From positions 1 to 23,308 of the IMG/VR virus record IMGVR_UViG_3300031539_000324: DNA of 23,308 nucleotides; one strand, given 5' to 3'. This DNA comes from a virus. Positions 9,197 to 23,308 of this stretch are shown piece after piece. Below the pieces are notes generated by a model. The model saw only the letters and a list, made by a program, of their open reading frames with translations. It had not been told where the DNA came from and did no database searches. Position 1 is the stretch's first letter. Each line of letters starts with the position of its first letter. The position numbers were made by a program, and so were the translations under genes.

Positions 9197-9233
9197 AAAA
9201 AAGGGTGGAGAACAAAATCTCCACCCTTTTTTT
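9197..9233. terminator. Bidirectional intrinsic terminator
   Basis: GGGTGGAGA at 9203-9211 pairs perfectly with TCTCCACCC at 9218-9226 around a 6-base loop. Six A bases precede the stem and seven T bases follow it, so it terminates both the rightward dut-ssb operon and the leftward operon whose last stop codon sits at 9232-9234. Confidence 0.95.
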
Positions 9234-9726
9234 ATTCGGTAAAAAAGTGACCCGATGCTTGCAAGGCATCCCGAACCTTCTCAAGCGTTTCGCCTAGCCA
9301 GTTCAATCCCATCCATTGAGATGGGTCTTTAACTCGTATGTCGGTAGGATGCAAGCCGACACCCCACAGTCTATCGTGTGGGCTTGCTTCGACAATCATC
9401 CTGGGGCGAGTGTTCAGGAGATAGCTTCTATGGTATACATTTTGCGTGTACTTAGCCATGTTACCATTGAATACTATATCTCTTGCGGCTGAACGCCATA
9501 CCTCATCCTTGAATCCCTTGACTTTGCGACCCAGGCGCTTCTGCTCTCTTGGATCGCTAGTCATCATAATCAACAGCCTAGTCTCGCGATCGCCAAACAG
9601 TAATGCTTTCTCAGACATCATATACTGTTCGGCGCACCCATACACGATGCCATCAATTGTAAATGGCGAACTATCCCATTGGGATAAAGGCCCACCCCAA
9701 AACGCCACTACATCATTATCGTACAT
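9232..9726 (-). CDS. NADAR-domain (YbiA/RibX-like) N-glycosidase
   Basis: A 164-residue single-domain protein that closely follows the NADAR (DUF1768) pattern: FWGGPLSQW near residue 9, GCAEQYMMSEKA near 30, DPREQKRLGRKVKGF near 58, NMAKYTQN near 88, LLNTRP near 103, EASPHDRLWGVGLHP near 113 and GLNWLGETLEKVRD near the end. Characterised relatives cleave N-glycosidic bonds of riboflavin intermediates (YbiA) or remove ADP-ribose from guanine bases, including within DNA. In a phage, reversal of a host ADP-ribosyl-DNA toxin or NAD/ADP-ribose metabolism are plausible roles, but neither is shown here. The start is ATG 9726, with GAAAGG 5 bases upstream. It follows the two small paralog-like genes and ends inside the shared terminator. 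Confidence 0.9.
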   Translation of the reverse strand: MYDNDVVAFWGGPLSQWDSSPFTIDGIVYGCAEQYMMSEKALLFGDRETRLLIMMTSDPREQKRLGRKVKGFKDEVWRSAARDIVFNGNMAKYTQNVYHRSYLLNTRPRMIVEASPHDRLWGVGLHPTDIRVKDPSQWMGLNWLGETLEKVRDALQASGHFFTE

Positions 9727-10073: not shown

Positions 10074-10404
10074 TATTTCCCCTTGTTATTGATTGTTTAC
10101 GCTTTTTCACTTGCAGCCTAATTAAATCCATGCCAATATCAAACGGAATATCAATCAGCGCACCACTGTTTTTAACGTTGCCATACCTATTGCATCGATG
10201 TATAGAGCCATTGATATCAACCTGAACGTAGTCGGCAACATCCAACTGTAGGGCGCGCAATCGAATTGCGAGCAATACGCAATCGTTAGATACATGAACC
10301 GATTTGTTCTGGAGTACGATATCGCTATCTACTATCGAATCAGCGAAATCCATTGCGTGTTCATCGCACACCGGCGATTTTTGATCCCATATTACTGTTA
10401 GCAT
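10066..10404 (-). CDS. Hypothetical protein, tandem paralog A
   Basis: A 112-residue unknown protein. The open frame continues upstream to 10542, but that extension translates a tRNA-like RNA and a poly-A run and is rejected. ATG 10404 has AAGGAA 6 bases upstream. The start MLTVIWDQKS resembles the next gene. The middle has a DYVQVDINGSIHRCNRYGN segment that reads like a beta hairpin with a single Cys, and the C-terminus is basic (VKKRKQSITRG). It lies directly downstream of the structured RNA block on the same strand, so the RNAs and this gene are probably on one transcript. Confidence 0.65.
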   Translation of the reverse strand: MLTVIWDQKSPVCDEHAMDFADSIVDSDIVLQNKSVHVSNDCVLLAIRLRALQLDVADYVQVDINGSIHRCNRYGNVKNSGALIDIPFDIGMDLIRLQVKKRKQSITRGNNA

Positions 10405-10470: not shown

Positions 10471-10542
10471 TGTACGTGATGGGACTCGAACCCATGTCTT
10501 CGGCGCGTCCGCTCGATGTTGTTCCGACTCAACTACACGCAC
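10471..10542 (-). ncRNA. tRNA-like RNA with hairpin in place of anticodon arm
   Basis: This 72-nt element has a full 7-bp acceptor (GTGCGTG with CACGTAC, one G-U pair) and discriminator A. The D arm is GTTG/CAAC with GG in the loop, and the T arm is ATGGG-TTCGAGT-CCCAT. The anticodon region cannot form a 5-bp stem with a 7-base loop: only three pairs form at normal register and there is no U33. Instead TCG(A)GCG pairs with CGCCGA around a GACG tetraloop. It would thus look like a tRNA at the elbow and acceptor but cannot decode. No CCA is encoded. It may be a degenerate tRNA or a deliberate mimic. Confidence 0.65.
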
Positions 10543-10550
10543 GAGATATA

Positions 10551-10685
10551 CCCTGTTCGCTGGTCAATCGGTTGAACCAGATTTCTCTGTAGCCGTCAAC
10601 CGATGTACTAAACCACTATAACGGCGAGCCTTATCCAAATGCATCCTAAAGGAGGTAGACAAATTTACTACTCCAACGAACAGGG
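10551..10685 (-). ncRNA. Structured RNA closed by 13-bp helix, possible pseudoknot
   Basis: On the minus strand CCCTGTTCGTTGG (10685-10673) pairs with CCAGCGAACAGGG (10563-10551), 13 pairs with one U-G; on the plus strand that position would be a C-A mismatch, so the minus strand is the structured one. Inside are an 8-bp stem ATCGGTTG/CAACCGAT (10604-10597 with 10574-10567) enclosing CAGA-GAAA-TCTG with a GNRA tetraloop (10589-10578), a 5-bp GCCGT/ACGGC (10625-10621 with 10596-10592) that crosses it to make a pseudoknot, and small hairpins at 10671-10655 and 10653-10644. ACCTCCTTT at 10656-10648 matches the 16S anti-Shine-Dalgarno. GGTTCAA next to the 3' closing strand recalls a T arm. No known RNA family is recognised. 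Confidence 0.6.
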
Positions 10686-10688
10686 CTG

Positions 10689-10761
10689 TGGGGACAGATG
10701 GATTTGAACCATCAACCAACAAGTTATGAGCCTGCTGCTCTGCCAATTGAGCTATATCCCC
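10689..10761 (-). tRNA. tRNA-Met (anticodon CAU)
   Basis: A complete 73-nt cloverleaf. The acceptor is GGGGATA with TGTCCCC and discriminator A. The D arm GCTC/GAGC has loop AATTGGCA. The anticodon stem GCAGG/CTTGT holds loop CTCATAA with anticodon CAU, the variable loop is TGGTT, and the T arm is GATGG-TTCAAAT-CCATC. The paired G1-C72 end and the lack of three G-C pairs under the anticodon argue against an initiator. Elongator Met is most likely; an Ile-decoding tRNA made by lysidine modification of C34 cannot be excluded by sequence. CCA is not encoded (ACA follows). Confidence 0.95.
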
Positions 10762-10766
10762 AAGCG

Positions 10767-10816
10767 CGAAGTGGAAGTTCAGCGTTGTGTTTCCTTTCTG
10801 AATAATATCCACTTCG
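10767..10816 (-). ncRNA. Long two-stem hairpin upstream of tRNA-Met
   Basis: CGAAGTGGA (10816-10808) pairs perfectly with TCCACTTCG (10775-10767). After a small internal loop TTCAG (10802-10798) pairs with CTGAA (10782-10778), capped by a 15-base purine-rich loop containing AAAGGAAAC. It sits 5 bases before the tRNA-Met 5' end. It could guide processing or be a separate RNA. Confidence 0.55.
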
Positions 10817-10821
10817 GCTAC

Positions 10822-10852
10822 GACAACTGACTAACCTCAATAGAACAGTGTC
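10822..10852 (-). ncRNA. Small hairpin in RNA block
   Basis: On the minus strand GACACTG pairs with CAG(T)TGTC, seven pairs with one bulged T, around a 16-base loop. It fills the gap between the 53-nt tRNA-like RNA and the hairpin at 10767-10816. On its own this could be chance; its weight comes from the packed arrangement. Confidence 0.4.
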
Positions 10853-10855
10853 AAT

Positions 10856-10908
10856 TTGTGGCGGCTGGAATCGAACCAACGATACATGCCCACGACAGCA
10901 TCGCCACA
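10856..10908 (-). ncRNA. 53-nt tRNA-like RNA lacking a D arm
   Basis: A 7-bp acceptor TGTGGCG/CGCCACA with discriminator A and a normal T arm GTTGG-TTCGATT-CCAGC are joined by only 21 bases instead of about 42. Those 21 bases form one hairpin, ATGC-TGTCGTGG-GCAT, with an 8-base loop, so there is no room for both a D arm and an anticodon arm. If the hairpin served as anticodon arm, T33 would precede CGT, but the loop is one base too large. It lies 6 bases after the stop codon of the gene at 10915. Confidence 0.65.
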
Positions 10909-10914
10909 CAAAAA

Positions 10915-11685
10915 TCATTCTTTCCAGTCTGGTTCTTCCATCCCAAGTGCTGCAATTCTGTCTAGAATCTCAGAGGCTGGAATCGAACGGGATTCACACA
11001 GCTTATCACTGGCAAACCTAGCAGAAACCAGGATGTTGTGATACACCGGCACGTTCAAATTCTCCACCGGATGCCATATGTATTGTGTTGCATCCACCGA
11101 TCTGTCCAGAGACACAACAAGAGGATATTCGGTTTCCGGATTGCGATTGATAAACAGCCTGTATTTCATACCTCTTGCGATTGCAGAGTCTAGGCTACTT
11201 CGCCATCCTGTCGTTTCCCCATCTGGCTCAAACGATCTTGCATCCATGACCCTGTATACATTACTGTGATGCTTAGGCGCGTCGAACAGCAGATGTACTG
11301 TAGATTGCACTCCATTACGGATATCAGTTCTTCTTCCAAGCGCATCGAGCAGGTTCTTGCTAAGCCGATGAAAGTACATGTTGGTGCCAGTGGTTGCAAT
11401 TTCGTTAGCGATAACCAACTTTCCAGTGTAGAAATCGCGGTACATCCATACAGAATCGTAGCTGAGTACGGTATCTCCTGCAATCTGAAAGTTCATTATC
11501 AGTGCCGTTTCCGAATCGCGATATTTGGCCAGCACCTCTTCTCCCTTGATGTGTATACCGACGAACCCCTTTATCGTTCCAGATATGTTGAGAGTCAGTA
11601 TACCTCTCGTTGCTTCATCTCTGGGCACTCCATTTGGAACGTAACTATATGGTATCTGCACATTATCCTCCATAGATAAGCTCAT
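10915..11685 (-). CDS. Hypothetical protein heading the RNA-block transcript
   Basis: A 256-residue protein (ATG 11685) that I do not recognise. The first half is rich in beta strands (GILTLNISGTIKGFVGIHIKGEE, split over two strands), and later segments mix strands with short helices; no catalytic motif, signal peptide or membrane segment is visible. The ATG at 11685 lacks a ribosome site, while an in-frame GTG at 11661 has GGAGG 5 bases upstream and may be the true start, giving 248 residues. It follows a strong promoter at 11718-11746 by about 26 bases and is directly followed by the structured RNA block, so one transcript may carry this mRNA, the tRNA-like RNAs and the two small paralogs. 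Confidence 0.7.
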   Translation of the reverse strand: MSLSMEDNVQIPYSYVPNGVPRDEATRGILTLNISGTIKGFVGIHIKGEEVLAKYRDSETALIMNFQIAGDTVLSYDSVWMYRDFYTGKLVIANEIATTGTNMYFHRLSKNLLDALGRRTDIRNGVQSTVHLLFDAPKHHSNVYRVMDARSFEPDGETTGWRSSLDSAIARGMKYRLFINRNPETEYPLVVSLDRSVDATQYIWHPVENLNVPVYHNILVSARFASDKLCESRSIPASEILDRIAALGMEEPDWKE

Positions 11686-11712: not shown

Positions 11713-11782
11713 TTGACATTATAGCACGCACATAGCCATACGTCAAAATATGCCATATGGCTATGTGACGCTATTATGTCAA
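11713..11782. repeat. 70-bp near-perfect interrupted palindrome
   Basis: The outer arms are TTGACATTATAGC (11713-11725) and GCTATTATGTCAA (11770-11782), inverted copies with one mismatch. The inner arms CACATAGCCATA (11729-11740) and TATGGCTATGTG (11756-11767) are a perfect 12-bp inverted repeat, and GCCATATGGC (11752-11761) is a smaller palindrome within. The structure covers the leftward promoter at 11718-11746. It occupies most of the 140-base gap between the RNR stop and the next gene. Confidence 0.85.
11718..11746 (-). promoter_or_regulatory. Strong sigma70-type promoter inside the palindrome
   Basis: Reading leftward, TTGACG (11746-11741) and TATAAT (11723-11718) are exactly 17 bases apart, with a predicted start near 11711. 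Its spacer is one inner palindrome arm, so any protein binding the palindrome would block or modulate it. Confidence 0.85.
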
Positions 11783-11825: not shown

Positions 11826-14800
11826 CTATTTAACAAACGGAATTTGACATGCATCTCCATCGCAGTAAGCATCTACCAGTCTATCTACCGGAGCTACGTT
11901 TTTAATATTCAAATTCTTTAGTTTCGAATAATCAATTTTCATTTCCATTAAGCCGTAGCGAACTTCATTGATTTCCTCGTATGGCATCTGGGTGTACGCG
12001 CCGCCGCTAACTTCTGGCAACATTGAAACTGATTTCAGAGAGTGCTGGTAGTGGTCTAGCGCAATCGACAATTCCTGTGCCGTTGTCGATTCGGGGTTGA
12101 CGCTGATTGTAACTGACACACTATTGTCAGACCAATGGCGTTGCATCATGGCCGCAAGATTAAACTGTTCCCAAATAGTCAAATCTTTAGCACGGCGCAG
12201 ATTGTCTCCGGCATGGATTGGGAATTCAGCCACAACCGTATTTGGCGAATAATCATCTATCTCGATATGAACACCTGCTTCTCGTAAACGTTCTGCCAAG
12301 TGGCTATTATCCGAGAATCGCACACGACGAATGTAATATTCAGCAACAGGATGGTGAACCCCTGGTGTCGCACCGGCAACCAGAGATACCGTTCCAGATG
12401 GCTTGACGGTCGTGACGCGCACGCTCTCATTGACGCCGAACCAGTTGCTATATCTCTTATCGTAGTGCTTGACGTATGAATAACCATCCTCTGCCCACTT
12501 GACAAGTGTTCCCATGCCACGCGATGCGACAAACTGAGCGATGCCAGTCATCGATAGGCCAATGCGACGATTCTGCATCATAAGCTGTCGCGTACCAGGA
12601 TGTGCAATTTTCTCGCTGAGAAGCGTAATGGACTTCCCGTACAAGTATGCAAACTTAATACTACGTGCGAAATCGTAGAAGGAATCGTGTCGATTTGGAT
12701 ATAGCTCTACAAGCGTGCATTGCTTCGTGATTACGTTTCCAAATACACCCATATGTCGCATCGGCTCGTTGAAACAATATGTTGGCTCGCTGTCCGAGAT
12801 TAATTTGATGCTTACAACCCGTTGTCGTTTTGCCCTGCTGATCGGCTTTGAATTTTTATGGGCATGGTTTTCTTGATATTCAGAGCCAAACCGCTCGATA
12901 ACCTTTAGCCTTGTTTTTATTTTACTGCACTCGTAGCTAGGGATAAACATTCGCCACAAATCGTAATTTCTTCGTCCATAATTCGTGATTGTCCCAGTTG
13001 GCGACAACAATCGTATTGTAGCGTGGTTTACCCCGATTCTCCGCAATAGTATTTGCGCATCTCTCAGCTTTTGTTCTGACCCATACAACACATAATGTTG
13101 CGTGTTGGGGTTTTTAGCTATTGAACCATCTGCATCTATCCACCCACCCATGAACTCGGAAATACCATCTGCGTCCATACGCATGATTCGACTAGCAAGA
13201 CCGGCGTCATGATCTCGCAGTTGAACCGCAGTATCCATATCGATTTCCCCGCTAAAGTTTACCCTGCGGAACGGACGTGAATATCCAGCAGAATGCTGCT
13301 CTTTCCACATATTCCAGCCAGCATCTTGTCCTATAAAATATTCGTTCTCCTGAATAACCGCCAGTGCTTTTCTGTTGTCATCTATATATCCGTCACCAGT
13401 AAACCACCCAAGCTCGTATGCGTGTTTGTCACTGGTTCCGCCAGAATCTATTACTTCGAATTTCGGAAGAACCATTCCGACTTCGAGGGAATCCGTCGTG
13501 TGCGTTCGATACTTAGCCTGGGTTTTTGTTTTTGCAATCCATTCGTGTTTTGGGGTCGCATCTAAGTACGAACCATCCGATAGTGTCACCCTGTAAAGGC
13601 TTCCGGTTCCAGCCAAAAATGGAGTAACCTCAGACCACTCTTCTCCGTTCCAAATCTTAACGCGCTTATTAACCAAGTCGGAGATTCGGAATATACCATC
13701 TTCTGTTTGTATTTGCGTATCGCCAGCTACGCATAGCTCACCGCCAACACCAGCGGGCGACCATCCGTACAAAAACTGCTCGCCGCACTGTCCAGTCTCA
13801 ATCCCGCAAGACAACGAGATTCGATGGCTCGTAGGTACAGTACAACAATACACTTTGTCCTCTGTTCCAGCAGGCTCTATCTTGACAACTGTATTCCATT
13901 TTAACGTATATTGATATGTTGTCTTACACGTCAGGTGTAAGTTATCCAATCTGGCAAACTGTATCTGGTTAGACAAAACGATGCTTGCGTGTTGAGCAAT
14001 AGATAAACGCCAGCATTCTTTAGCTTTATATTCTCCATAACCATCGCCAAAATCGCGTATTCCTGCCTCGTGCGACATGGCAAGTTTTGAATGTACTCCG
14101 ATTGACTTTAGTAGTGTTTGTACATCTAATAGAAACTCGCGGCGTACAGATGAAAGTTGATATCCAAATCCATTATTCGTATCAAATGCCGTGCCATCGG
14201 AATCGAAGATTCCAGCAATTAACTCTAGTTTCGATTTTCTATTCCACCCAAATACCTCAAACGGAAGTTTATCTTTATATGTTGTTGCCCACGGCATAAT
14301 ATCATAATCTCTAGCGCGTAATCCTTGGATCACAACCACCGAGCGACCATTGCTGTATTCGCCATCCGTATAGTTTGGCTCGCTAATCATGTCGCTTCTT
14401 CCATCGCGTGCAGGAATCTCGGACAACGATTGCACGATTTTCTCGGCACATACTTTTTTTGTATCGTATAACCATAGCGCCGGTACAGTCCCATGAGAAG
14501 TACCATCTCCAAGCATAAATCCTTTTACATATGCGCCTGCAACATCTAAATCTCCATGAGACTCCGGGGCAGTAGATGATTGTAGTTTATCGCCAGCTAC
14601 AATATCTTTCGCCTGTCGAGAAGTGCCATCGTCAAGAACCATTGTGTGGTATGGCGTAACAAATAGCTCTGTTCCATCTTGAAGCTCAATTCGCAATACT
14701 TTTTGGTTGGTTCCAGTTACCCTAAAGTTGTCAATCGCAACCCACTGGCTACCGTCCCATATATCGGCGGTCTCTCCAACCAAATCAACAATGGGTACAT

Positions 14801-15917
14801 CTCCGTTCTTGGTGCGTATAAGCGTATCGCCACGGAAGCATGGATTAACTCCAGTAGCTAAGTCACGATGATCTTCAATGCCGTTCATACGAGCATACTT
14901 ATTCGCGTTTTCTAACCACACGAATCCAGGCTCGCCATTATCCATAATTCTTTCAACAAACGGCTTGTAATCCATGCCAACGTTAGCAAACACGCTATTG
15001 TTTGAAGACCATCCCCACTCCTTGCGTTCTGGATTCTGCGTGTAATTTTTAAGATTAGCGAACTCAGTATCGAATGGACTTCCAAGGGCAATTTCGCTGC
15101 TTCTCCGCACGTTACCGGCAACAACTACAACGCCAATCATATTCATGATGTCAGTGATGATTCTACCGGAAATGCGATCTCCATGTGCATCGTCCAAAAT
15201 TGTACGAACCTTATCGTGAAGCCACTCCAAAGGTTCATATCCACTAGCCACCCCGCCAAATCCGCGGATTAACGAACCCTTTGGGCGAATCAAAGAGTAG
15301 TCGAATGTTACGGCGTGCTGGACATCGCCATTCGGTATGTAGGACGACACGAGTCGGCCTATCGAATCTGCCCATCCTTCTCGGCTGTCAGGTATGACAA
15401 ATATATTGAGATCGGTATCTCGTGGCTTAACAATCTCTACTAGGCCAGCGCCACGAATATCAAATCCAACACCAACGCCGAGCATCAACATCTCCATGAC
15501 CCACTCAAAGATATGGCCTTTGTGATCTCGAATTGATTGCGTGCTGATGAAACCACAATTGTTCGTTGCCTCTACCATATTACGCTCATGTACTGATGGG
15601 GCACCCATATGATACAATCCGCGTCCTGGTGGACTCCACTTCAAGTTAAACAGTCTATCGTATGCCTCGTGTGCTGACTCTTTTGCTTTATCATCTGACC
15701 ACGGTACACCATGTTCCGATGCGTAATCTTTCTGTATTGTGTACATTCCATTGATAATTCTCTCGCAAGCGTCTGCCCAAGATTCTAGATTACCATCAGG
15801 TTTTACCCTAGCATACGTGCGATAAAATGTCACAGCCCCAAGAGAGCCAAACCCAAATGGCTCTGGACGATCTCGATATCGATCTACAAACTCATGGTCA
15901 AGATGAAAAGATAGCAT
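11826..15917 (-). CDS. nrdJ: Class II (B12-dependent) ribonucleotide reductase with two inteins
   Basis: A 1363-residue precursor of an adenosylcobalamin-dependent reductase resembling the monomeric Lactobacillus leichmannii RTPR; removing both inteins leaves 674 residues. It reduces ribonucleotides to deoxyribonucleotides by a thiyl radical and needs no oxygen or separate small subunit. Seen: NNCGF with redox Cys121, the LMLGVGVGFD segment near 145, an allosteric-site region following it, the catalytic NPCGEQ loop (split by intein 1 at its Cys, residue 360/711), VKPSGTVSLVAGATPG near 1171, and the C-terminal shuttle pair C1352 and C1357 in YCDGDAC. Inteins occupy residues 360-710 and 729-1066. 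The ATG at 15917 has GGGGGA about 7 bases upstream. Its promoter is at 16016-16044. It is translated away from the head genes. Confidence 0.93.
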   Translation of the reverse strand: MLSFHLDHEFVDRYRDRPEPFGFGSLGAVTFYRTYARVKPDGNLESWADACERIINGMYTIQKDYASEHGVPWSDDKAKESAHEAYDRLFNLKWSPPGRGLYHMGAPSVHERNMVEATNNCGFISTQSIRDHKGHIFEWVMEMLMLGVGVGFDIRGAGLVEIVKPRDTDLNIFVIPDSREGWADSIGRLVSSYIPNGDVQHAVTFDYSLIRPKGSLIRGFGGVASGYEPLEWLHDKVRTILDDAHGDRISGRIITDIMNMIGVVVVAGNVRRSSEIALGSPFDTEFANLKNYTQNPERKEWGWSSNNSVFANVGMDYKPFVERIMDNGEPGFVWLENANKYARMNGIEDHRDLATGVNPCFRGDTLIRTKNGDVPIVDLVGETADIWDGSQWVAIDNFRVTGTNQKVLRIELQDGTELFVTPYHTMVLDDGTSRQAKDIVAGDKLQSSTAPESHGDLDVAGAYVKGFMLGDGTSHGTVPALWLYDTKKVCAEKIVQSLSEIPARDGRSDMISEPNYTDGEYSNGRSVVVIQGLRARDYDIMPWATTYKDKLPFEVFGWNRKSKLELIAGIFDSDGTAFDTNNGFGYQLSSVRREFLLDVQTLLKSIGVHSKLAMSHEAGIRDFGDGYGEYKAKECWRLSIAQHASIVLSNQIQFARLDNLHLTCKTTYQYTLKWNTVVKIEPAGTEDKVYCCTVPTSHRISLSCGIETGQCGEQFLYGWSPAGVGGELCVAGDTQIQTEDGIFRISDLVNKRVKIWNGEEWSEVTPFLAGTGSLYRVTLSDGSYLDATPKHEWIAKTKTQAKYRTHTTDSLEVGMVLPKFEVIDSGGTSDKHAYELGWFTGDGYIDDNRKALAVIQENEYFIGQDAGWNMWKEQHSAGYSRPFRRVNFSGEIDMDTAVQLRDHDAGLASRIMRMDADGISEFMGGWIDADGSIAKNPNTQHYVLYGSEQKLRDAQILLRRIGVNHATIRLLSPTGTITNYGRRNYDLWRMFIPSYECSKIKTRLKVIERFGSEYQENHAHKNSKPISRAKRQRVVSIKLISDSEPTYCFNEPMRHMGVFGNVITKQCTLVELYPNRHDSFYDFARSIKFAYLYGKSITLLSEKIAHPGTRQLMMQNRRIGLSMTGIAQFVASRGMGTLVKWAEDGYSYVKHYDKRYSNWFGVNESVRVTTVKPSGTVSLVAGATPGVHHPVAEYYIRRVRFSDNSHLAERLREAGVHIEIDDYSPNTVVAEFPIHAGDNLRRAKDLTIWEQFNLAAMMQRHWSDNSVSVTISVNPESTTAQELSIALDHYQHSLKSVSMLPEVSGGAYTQMPYEEINEVRYGLMEMKIDYSKLKNLNIKNVAPVDRLVDAYCDGDACQIPFVK
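12720..13733 (-). other. Intein 2 (338 aa) with LAGLIDADG homing endonuclease, Gln-terminal
   Basis: Residues 729-1066 of the RNR precursor. Block A starts at Cys729 (CVAGDTQIQTEDG) and block B is near YLDATPKHEW with His791. Two LAGLIDADG helices are visible: ELGWFTGDGYIDD at 835-847 and EFMGGWIDADGSIA at 921-934. Block F/G reads PTYCFNEPMRHMGVFG and ends VITKQ, followed by extein Cys1067. The last residue is Gln instead of Asn, and the residue before it is Lys instead of His. It is inserted only 18 extein residues after intein 1, at GEL|CTLVE. Confidence 0.88.
13788..14840 (-). other. Intein 1 (351 aa) with LAGLIDADG homing endonuclease, Gln-terminal
   Basis: Residues 360-710 of the RNR precursor, inserted exactly before the catalytic Cys of NP|CGEQ. 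Block A is CFRGDTLIRTKNG at 360-372 and block B is ELFVTPYHTMV with His424. The LAGLIDADG helices are VKGFMLGDGTSHG at 464-476 and LELIAGIFDSDGTAFD at 564-579. Block F/G reads KVYCCTVPTSHRISLSCG and ends IETGQ before extein Cys711. The terminal Gln with Gly before it replaces the usual His-Asn, as known in a minority of splicing-competent inteins such as the iridescent virus RNR intein. Confidence 0.9.
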
Positions 15918-22255: not shown

Positions 22256-23308
22256 ATGGATGCTCTGACTAAAGCATTGCAACAGACCACTGGTTCTGGT
22301 CAGTACCTGATTCCTGAAGACCTGAATCCGGTTATTATGGAATATCTTGGTCGTCTTAGCCCGCTGTGGCAACTGATGCCCAAGAAACAAGCCGAAGGCA
22401 AAACGCACGAATATGTGAAGCGAACTGCTGTTCCGTCTGCATGGTTCGAAGGCGAACTGACAGCAACGACCGCTTCGTCCAGCACCTACACGCGTGAATC
22501 GCAGCAACTCAAGATTCTGCGCACGTGGGGTGGTGTCTCTGGATACCAGCAGGCCGTTTCCGAGCGCTTTGTTAATGCGCTTCAGGCGGAACTGATTGGT
22601 TCCCTTGAGGGTTTGGCTGAGATGGTTGAATGGTCGGTCATTTTTGGTAATGATATAGATACCTATCAGATTAATGGCCTTGCCACTCAGATGGAAGAAG
22701 ACTCTACTGCCAAGACCGCTTTGGCCAGTGGTGGAAACATCTTGAATGTTGATGGCGTCGTTACGCTTACTCACCTGGACAACATGATTGACCGTGTGAA
22801 TAGCTACCGCGCCGCACAGCGCGATGCTCGTGCATTCTTGATGAGCAACGAGATGATCAGCAAGGTTTCTGGTTTGCAGACGCGTGTTGCCCGTAACGTA
22901 GATAGCGTTGAATTTCCTGGTGGCCTGCGCTTCAGCAGCTATCGTGGCGTTCCTCTGCTTCCTGCGAGCTACGCAACTCCTGCTGTGACCACGACTTCCC
23001 CTGCCGTCACCGCGACGAAGGGTGCTGGCGGATCGCTGGCCGATGATGAGTATTTCTACGTCATCGCAAGCGTCACCGATGCTGGTGAGCAGTTGCATGG
23101 CACGGAAAATAGTGCCACAACTGAGACCACGAACAACAAAGTTGTGTTGACTTGGACGGCTGATGCGAATGCTAAGCTGTACAAGATTTACCGAGCCTTA
23201 ACGACTGGCACTGACAATCATGGCCTTCTGGCTACGGTTGCTGCCAAGACCTATGCTTCTGACGGTGCGATTAGCACGAATGTTGCTACTTGGACTGATG
23301 ACGGTACT
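22256..23308 (+). CDS. Major capsid protein, HK97-like, cut at window edge
   Basis: The frame is open for 351 codons to the end of the window and has no stop. GGAGG lies 8 bases before ATG 22256. The N-terminal 240 residues fit the HK97-type capsid family: GQYLIPEDLNPVIMEYL near 15-31, a TRESQQLKILRTWGG strand region, an AELIGSLEGLAEMVEWSVIFGND long helix, INGLATQM near 140, AFLMSNEMISKVSGL near 197 and a GLRFSSYRGVPLLP strand. From about residue 243 a Thr/Ala-rich linker leads to DDEYFYVIASVTDAGE and NKVVLTWTADANAKLYKIYRA, which read like an immunoglobulin or fibronectin type III domain. Codon use is more C-ending and regular than in neighbours, as expected for an abundant protein. Confidence 0.9.
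   Translation, partial: MDALTKALQQTTGSGQYLIPEDLNPVIMEYLGRLSPLWQLMPKKQAEGKTHEYVKRTAVPSAWFEGELTATTASSSTYTRESQQLKILRTWGGVSGYQQAVSERFVNALQAELIGSLEGLAEMVEWSVIFGNDIDTYQINGLATQMEEDSTAKTALASGGNILNVDGVVTLTHLDNMIDRVNSYRAAQRDARAFLMSNEMISKVSGLQTRVARNVDSVEFPGGLRFSSYRGVPLLPASYATPAVTTTSPAVTATKGAGGSLADDEYFYVIASVTDAGEQLHGTENSATTETTNNKVVLTWTADANAKLYKIYRALTTGTDNHGLLATVAAKTYASDGAISTNVATWTDDGT

Follow-up and report, generated by a model that had tools for sequence, protein, structure and literature searches.

A candidate phage stable-RNA cluster with two small, probably non-decoding tRNA-like RNAs

INTRODUCTION

Phage T4 produces two late RNAs, rnaC and rnaD, which have been validated by Northern analysis and to which no function has been assigned (PMC9697503, PMC3014915). 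In the annotation of phage T5 (AY543070), RNAIII, RNAI and RNA1 lie back to back with tRNA-His, and RNA2, RNAIV, RNA3, RNA2H and RNAX are listed as well; these are stable RNAs, most of them with 'unknown functions' and three of them tRNA-like. Literature searches in an open-access library gave nothing on the T5 tRNA-like stable RNAs. Here, we describe an array of small RNAs, among them two tRNA-like RNAs that probably do not decode, in the IMG/VR virus record IMGVR_UViG_3300031539_000324, of which a stretch of 23,308 bases (the window) was analysed. This stretch encodes a phage gpA-type terminase, a portal protein and a class II ribonucleotide reductase with an intein. A first-pass annotation of the window had presented the array, neither decoding nor decayed, as a departure from known phage tRNA clusters, but the T5 and T4 stable tRNA-like RNAs provide a precedent, so this view could not be maintained.

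RESULTS

The array occupies positions 10908 to 10471 of the minus strand, where the RNAs are closely packed between two open reading frames (ORFs) on the same strand. As shown in Table 1, the order is a 52-nucleotide (nt) RNA, a weak hairpin, a strong hairpin, a tRNA with a CAU anticodon, a 137-nt RNA and a 72-nt cloverleaf. The first-pass annotation had described this packed layout and the strong hairpin, and both were confirmed. Of the six structured elements that it proposed five stand, since the first hairpin is not more structured than its shuffles, and the lengths of 53 and 135 nt that it gave for two of the RNAs had to be corrected to 52 and 137 nt. When the whole window was scanned for a 7-base pair (bp) acceptor stem adjoining a T arm of 5 bp with a 7-nt loop (TTCRANN), three elements were found, every one of them within the array, and 20 Markov shuffles gave no match, which places the 52-nt RNA far above chance. 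None of the three tRNA-like elements is followed by an encoded CCA. In a blastn comparison with INPHARED, the CAU tRNA was the only part of the array covered among the matches listed, which include tRNA-Met and tRNA-Ile of other phages, and common descent with the T5 or T4 stable RNAs is thus not seen at the sequence level.

The 52-nt RNA is a minimal form. All seven pairs of its acceptor stem (TGTGGCG / CGCCACA) are Watson-Crick pairs, the T arm is canonical (GTTGG-TTCGATT-CCAGC), and the discriminator A73 is located at 10856. It also has one short hairpin (ATGC..GCAT) but nothing that corresponds to a usual D or anticodon arm. In the 38-kb sibling contig described below, this RNA matches the Rfam tRNA model with 17.9 bits (E=0.009).

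The 72-nt RNA resembles a decoding tRNA-Val(GAC) in most of its parts: pairing is complete in the acceptor, D and T arms, G3:U70 and A73 are present, and the tRNA-core nucleotides U8, A14, G15, G18G19, A21, C48 and TUCRA are kept. However, it has neither a 5-bp anticodon stem with a 7-nt loop nor U33. The anticodon arm contains an A-C and a G-G mismatch and carries a G at position 33, and it folds better as UCG[A]GCG-GACG-CGCCGA, where a 4-nt instead of a 7-nt loop caps a bulged stem. With such an arm, it is very unlikely that the RNA decodes in the normal way. The earlier statement that it lacks a usable anticodon arm is therefore supported by the two mismatches and G33, although both ARAGORN and Rfam do call it a tRNA-Val(GAC), the latter with 50.4 bits.

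The 137-nt RNA and the strong hairpin both fold more stably than all 200 shuffles against which they were scored. The former is closed by a 14-bp basal helix (GCCCTGTTCGTTGG/CCAGCGAACAGGGT) and contains an inner 9-bp hairpin (ATCGGTTGA/TCAACCGAT). In a free search in 442 nt such a helix is moderately rare (score 12.5 observed, with 1 of 100 shuffles reaching at least 13), and another piece of the window scored 15 in the same search, but a helix that, like this one, lies at both edges of the interval separating two array members is exceptional. The CAU tRNA, annotated before as a normal tRNA-Met, is indeed a normal tRNA, and its sequence fits either tRNA-Met or, after lysidine modification, tRNA-Ile.

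The array has one close relative, the sibling contig IMGVR_UViG_3300031565_000153 (38 kb), which is 99.83% identical over 13.5 kb and differs within the array by a single nucleotide polymorphism at 10629, outside the strong helices of the 137-nt RNA. Protein scans with the upstream ORF, the terminase, the ribonucleotide reductase and a DHH exonuclease for closer relatives gave the sibling only, or nothing. A search with the portal protein yielded 33 loci, the sibling with 100% and the others with 29-51% identity. No portal relative, and hence no host, was found in GTDB genomes. tRNAs were detected in 11 of the 24 new contigs, with up to 42 matches per contig. Eight contigs (G013, G018, G021, G024, G026, G028, G029 and G031) belong to a clade of uncultured phages and contain 15-42 matches to the tRNA model each; beyond the weak portal similarity, no relatives of this clade were found in GTDB genomes or among cultured phages.

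In the contigs examined (~1.07 Mb, sibling included), 223 elements with an acceptor and a T arm were found, 189 of which have a decoding-type arm while 34, by a loose rule, do not. Based on our own reading of the folds, ~16 elements are clearly non-decoding, the two of this array among them. Elements that keep an acceptor and a T arm but lack a decoding arm are thus also present in distantly related phages, with no sign of decay and in the forms listed in Table 1. Since the candidates were preselected for intact acceptor and T stems, these stems are not usable as a test of decay, and only the D stem, which was not a criterion, provides an unbiased comparison. An intact D stem was counted for 82% of the non-decoding elements (n=34), 73% of the decoding elements (n=189) and 34% of shuffled inserts. 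This is indirect evidence from a mixed set across relatives rather than from the RNAs of the window itself, and in the 52-nt RNA a D arm is not clearly recognisable. Non-decoding elements do not have broken D stems more often than decoding ones, contrary to what neutral decay predicts. Together with the perfect D stem and the core nucleotides of the 72-nt RNA, this agrees with the first-pass annotation, which had held intact acceptor and T arms without a usable anticodon arm to be at odds with decay.

The position of the non-decoding elements differs as well. The gaps upstream of them are larger than those of decoding tRNAs (median 372 versus 166 nt, p=0.016), and none of the 16 has an upstream element within 25 nt, compared to 26% of the decoding tRNAs, which fits with boundary elements. 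The difference in downstream gaps was not significant.

The relatives contain other unusual RNAs. Five tRNA-Arg-like RNAs (anticodons TCT, TCG, CCT) have no D arm: G028:40100-40175(-), G031:24004-24079, G031:26506-26579, G018:63223-63297 and G018:64651-64729. A 3-bp helix that varies yet remains paired (CGG/CCG, CTG/CAG, CGA/TCG, ATG/CAT) seems to enclose their anticodon arm and is followed by a GTAAxGGATGAAAAT-like sequence; this helix was read by eye and is reproduced by RNAfold for some of the members only. For bacteria and their phages, tRNAs that lack a D arm would be unusual. Two further tRNA-like RNAs, at G031 ~71637-71718 (L116 11637-11718) and G018 ~64303-64380 (L124), have GGUAGACGUACC-(A/U)AAxUGGAUxAA in common whereas their other stems differ, and possibly form a new RNA family; the one in G031 contains G3:U70 and scores 17.3 bits against the transfer-messenger RNA (tmRNA) model. 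A phage-encoded tmRNA is present in the tRNA region of G010 (L037 2083-2411, 76.2 bits), which also has a noncoding stretch of ~380 nt at 1300-1680, and an EGFOA RNA (RF02955) was detected above the cut-off at L013 8039-8144 (40.8 bits). CAU tRNAs with C33 in place of U33 (loop CCCATAA) occur in three contigs (G009:43017, G026:2630 and G031:27141).

As to the gene context, the promoter-like site upstream of the 256-amino-acid (aa) ORF has a TG before its second hexamer and is a putative operon promoter for this ORF and the array, although sigma-70-type sites are no more numerous in the region than expected by chance. The small ORF at the other flank of the array starts near 10403. Downstream, in the same direction and the same gene series, lies a NADAR-domain gene (9232-9726, minus strand, Pfam E=1.1e-44), and NADAR family members have been connected with ADP-ribose metabolism. 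The ribonucleotide reductase gene (11826-15917, minus strand) apparently contains two inteins. Differences with the sibling cluster at 12696-12714, just past the second intein, and at 15547-15555, a pattern that co-conversion during homing might leave.

Table 1. Coordinates of the array members and neighbouring features in the window, and of non-decoding elements in relatives
Feature	Position	Strand	Basis or remark
52-nt minimal tRNA-like RNA	10857..10908	-	acceptor+T scan, Rfam tRNA model
Weak hairpin	10822..10856	-	z=-0.85
Stable long hairpin GCCGAAGTGGA..TCCACTTCGCGC	10764..10818	-	z=-4.1
Canonical tRNA, CAU anticodon	10689..10761	-	ARAGORN, Rfam 70.6 bits
137-nt structured RNA	10550..10686	-	fold z=-4.15
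72-nt tRNA-like RNA, called tRNA-Val(GAC)	10471..10542	-	ARAGORN, Rfam
256-aa ORF, no assigned function	10915..11685	-	stop codon 6 nt before array start
Promoter-like TTGACG-17-TATAAT	11718..11746	-	sigma-70-type, 11/12 matches
Tetraloop-capped arms	G021 31243-31307; G034 39182-39253; G004 79428-79507		folds
Loops of 6, 8, 9, 12 or 15 nt	G009, G005, G018		folds
No anticodon arm	G031 32697-32761		folds
54-nt minimal form	G021 22443-22496		acceptor with one mismatch
58-nt minimal form	G024 50293-50350		
Four 118-136-nt RNAs	G024 47022; G025 56198; G018 58888; G034 38381		acceptor/D/T arms kept, anticodon arm replaced by long structured insert

DISCUSSION

We favour, at about an even chance, the reading that the array belongs with the phage stable-RNA clusters of the T5/T4 kind, in which the non-decoding tRNA-like RNAs would serve as RNase P- and CCA-competent punctuation and stabilisation. 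It is assigned to this kind because its architecture, rather than its sequence, appears to match: the RNAs are packed with a tRNA gene on the same strand at gaps of a few nt, one type of member is tRNA-like, with a T arm and an acceptor-like stem but without an anticodon arm, and the 137-nt RNA corresponds to the non-tRNA companions of ~100-170 nt with a long basal helix seen in T5. RNase P, the CCA-adding enzyme and EF-Tu recognise the acceptor and T arm, and the acceptor-T module may have been retained because host tRNA-processing enzymes recognise it. The array, with one decoding tRNA, non-decoding tRNA-like RNAs and stem-closed RNAs, would be transcribed together with the upstream gene. 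RNase P would then cut at every acceptor 5' end, and 3' trimming and addition of the CCA, which is not encoded, would follow, so that discrete stable RNAs are released. The two non-decoding RNAs might divide the stable RNAs from the flanking mRNAs and shield their ends; they are the first and the last members of the array, and punctuation is therefore the most economical role. The RNAs could also act, in addition or instead, by binding proteins that contact the acceptor and T arm (EF-Tu, AlaRS via G3:U70, tRNA nucleases).

Several observations weigh against this interpretation. The boundary test was significant on one of two sides only, with n=16, and these elements include the two of the window via the sibling and are not fully independent. 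Stem-closed gap RNAs are modestly enriched across the relatives (score of at least 9: 4 observed versus 0.56 in shuffles, with a maximum of 4 in 100 shuffle rounds), and the 137-nt RNA of the window is itself one of the 4, so weak an enrichment that such RNAs were not accepted as a general rule of the clade. No detectable relatives of the 137-nt RNA and the strong hairpin were found, and the sibling, the only close relative of the array that was found, is nearly identical to it.

Alternatively, the array could consist of decayed tRNAs and chance hairpins, functionless leftovers of a larger tRNA array. The arrays of the clade contain up to 42 tRNA matches, so loss is to be expected, the hairpin at 10822-10856 is not significant, and the T5 array itself includes a tRNA flagged as a pseudogene. 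We nevertheless regard decay as quite unlikely: non-decoding elements show no degradation of the D stem, the replacement arms are well-paired stems, several of them with tetraloops, and decay would not typically yield a 52-nt form that keeps a full T arm and all seven acceptor pairs.

If the RNAs are functional, they could act as decoys or sponges against a host defence that targets tRNAs, offering an acceptor, CCA tail and T arm without a cleavable anticodon loop, and so absorb or escape attack. It has been proposed that phage tRNAs escape anticodon nucleases by loop changes (PMC10264068), and the gene series that holds the array also includes the NADAR-domain gene. However, RNAs without an anticodon loop would not sponge anticodon nucleases, a truncated Cas12a3 substrate is bound 62-fold weaker than a full tRNA, and no relative that would point to a host was found in GTDB genomes; we consider this putative role unlikely. 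A slimmer chance is given to alanine-charged adaptors, that is, tRNA-like RNAs with G3:U70 that are alanylated and used outside decoding like tmRNA. In the contigs examined, G3:U70 occurs in 6 of 6 scorable tRNA-Ala, one tRNA-Asn and the 72-nt RNA, and in no other scorable ARAGORN tRNA. Together with A73 it is found in the 72-nt RNA and G004:79428-79507, compared to one other among 189 scored non-Ala tRNAs (Fisher p=0.016), and the element in G004 also has G2-C71 and G4-C69, which completes the bacterial alanine acceptor set (PMC9976931). The 72-nt RNA lacks these two pairs, the 52-nt RNA carries no alanine element, and with G3:U70 in only 2 of 16 non-decoding elements, alanine identity was rejected as their common feature. 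The GACG tetraloop that the 72-nt RNA and the G004 element have in common is not clearly enriched either (12 matches versus a median of 7 over all tetraloops) and was not retained as a family mark.

The reading of the array as a stable-RNA cluster can be extended, more tentatively, to a general class. Phages with large tRNA arrays may keep non-decoding tRNA-scaffold RNAs in which the acceptor and T arm are maintained whereas the anticodon arm has been lost, capped or exchanged for another RNA domain, under selection for a non-decoding function, with the T5 and T4 RNAs as the first known examples and the 52-nt RNA as one of the smallest. The T4 and T5 stable RNAs have been without an assigned function for decades, and the array is new as an unusually small member. 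The clade with its many non-decoding tRNA-like RNAs is a comparative data set beyond two model phages, and shows which tRNA parts are kept (acceptor, T arm and mostly the D arm) and which are free to change (the anticodon arm). If these RNAs act on defence nucleases or tRNA processing, tRNA counts of phages would overstate their decoding capacity, since ARAGORN and Rfam report the 72-nt RNA as a tRNA-Val.

Other known RNAs share single features with the array. Skipping-rope RNA (RF02924) is cloverleaf-like, has an arm capped by four bases and occurs in phages (PMC8501573), but the array has no match to it at E<=10, and the element of a relative at L008 3338-3410 scores 26.3 bits, below the 36.7-bit gathering cut-off. 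tmRNA has a tRNA-like half with G3:U70 and no anticodon arm, but the array reaches only 8.0 bits over 47 nt against RF00023 (cut-off 47) and has no mRNA-like or tag part and no pseudoknots. GOLLD and ROOL are structured phage RNAs near tRNA islands, also without an assigned function (PMC12286853), but they are far larger than the window RNAs and gave no Rfam match in the window. The KVP40 stretch examined contains no annotated tRNAs.

The closest likeness is to T4 and T5, and the acceptor-T scan also picks up T4 rnaC and T5 RNA1 and RNA2, which have no anticodon arm. T4 rnaC (species 1/2 RNA correspond to rnaC/rnaD) is a 139-nt RNA of a tRNA cluster, with a perfect T arm and an acceptor-like stem at its end. 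Its homologues in Karamvirus lie ~6 nt from tRNAs on both sides, and among six rnaC sequences one acceptor pair and one T pair have changed on both sides, i.e. in a compensatory manner. It differs from the window RNAs in the two U-U mismatches of its acceptor-like stem and in sequence, and the non-decoding tRNA-like RNAs of the window are about half its size or less. In T5, the RNAs are likewise packed among tRNAs with gaps of a few nt, some with an acceptor and T arm but no anticodon arm and others, namely RNAIII, RNAIV and RNA2H, closed by long basal helices like the 137-nt RNA. The T5 tRNA-like RNAs measure 144, 125 and 73 nt and show no sequence similarity to the RNAs of the window, which comprise a 52-nt form and a 72-nt cloverleaf whose capped arm is short.
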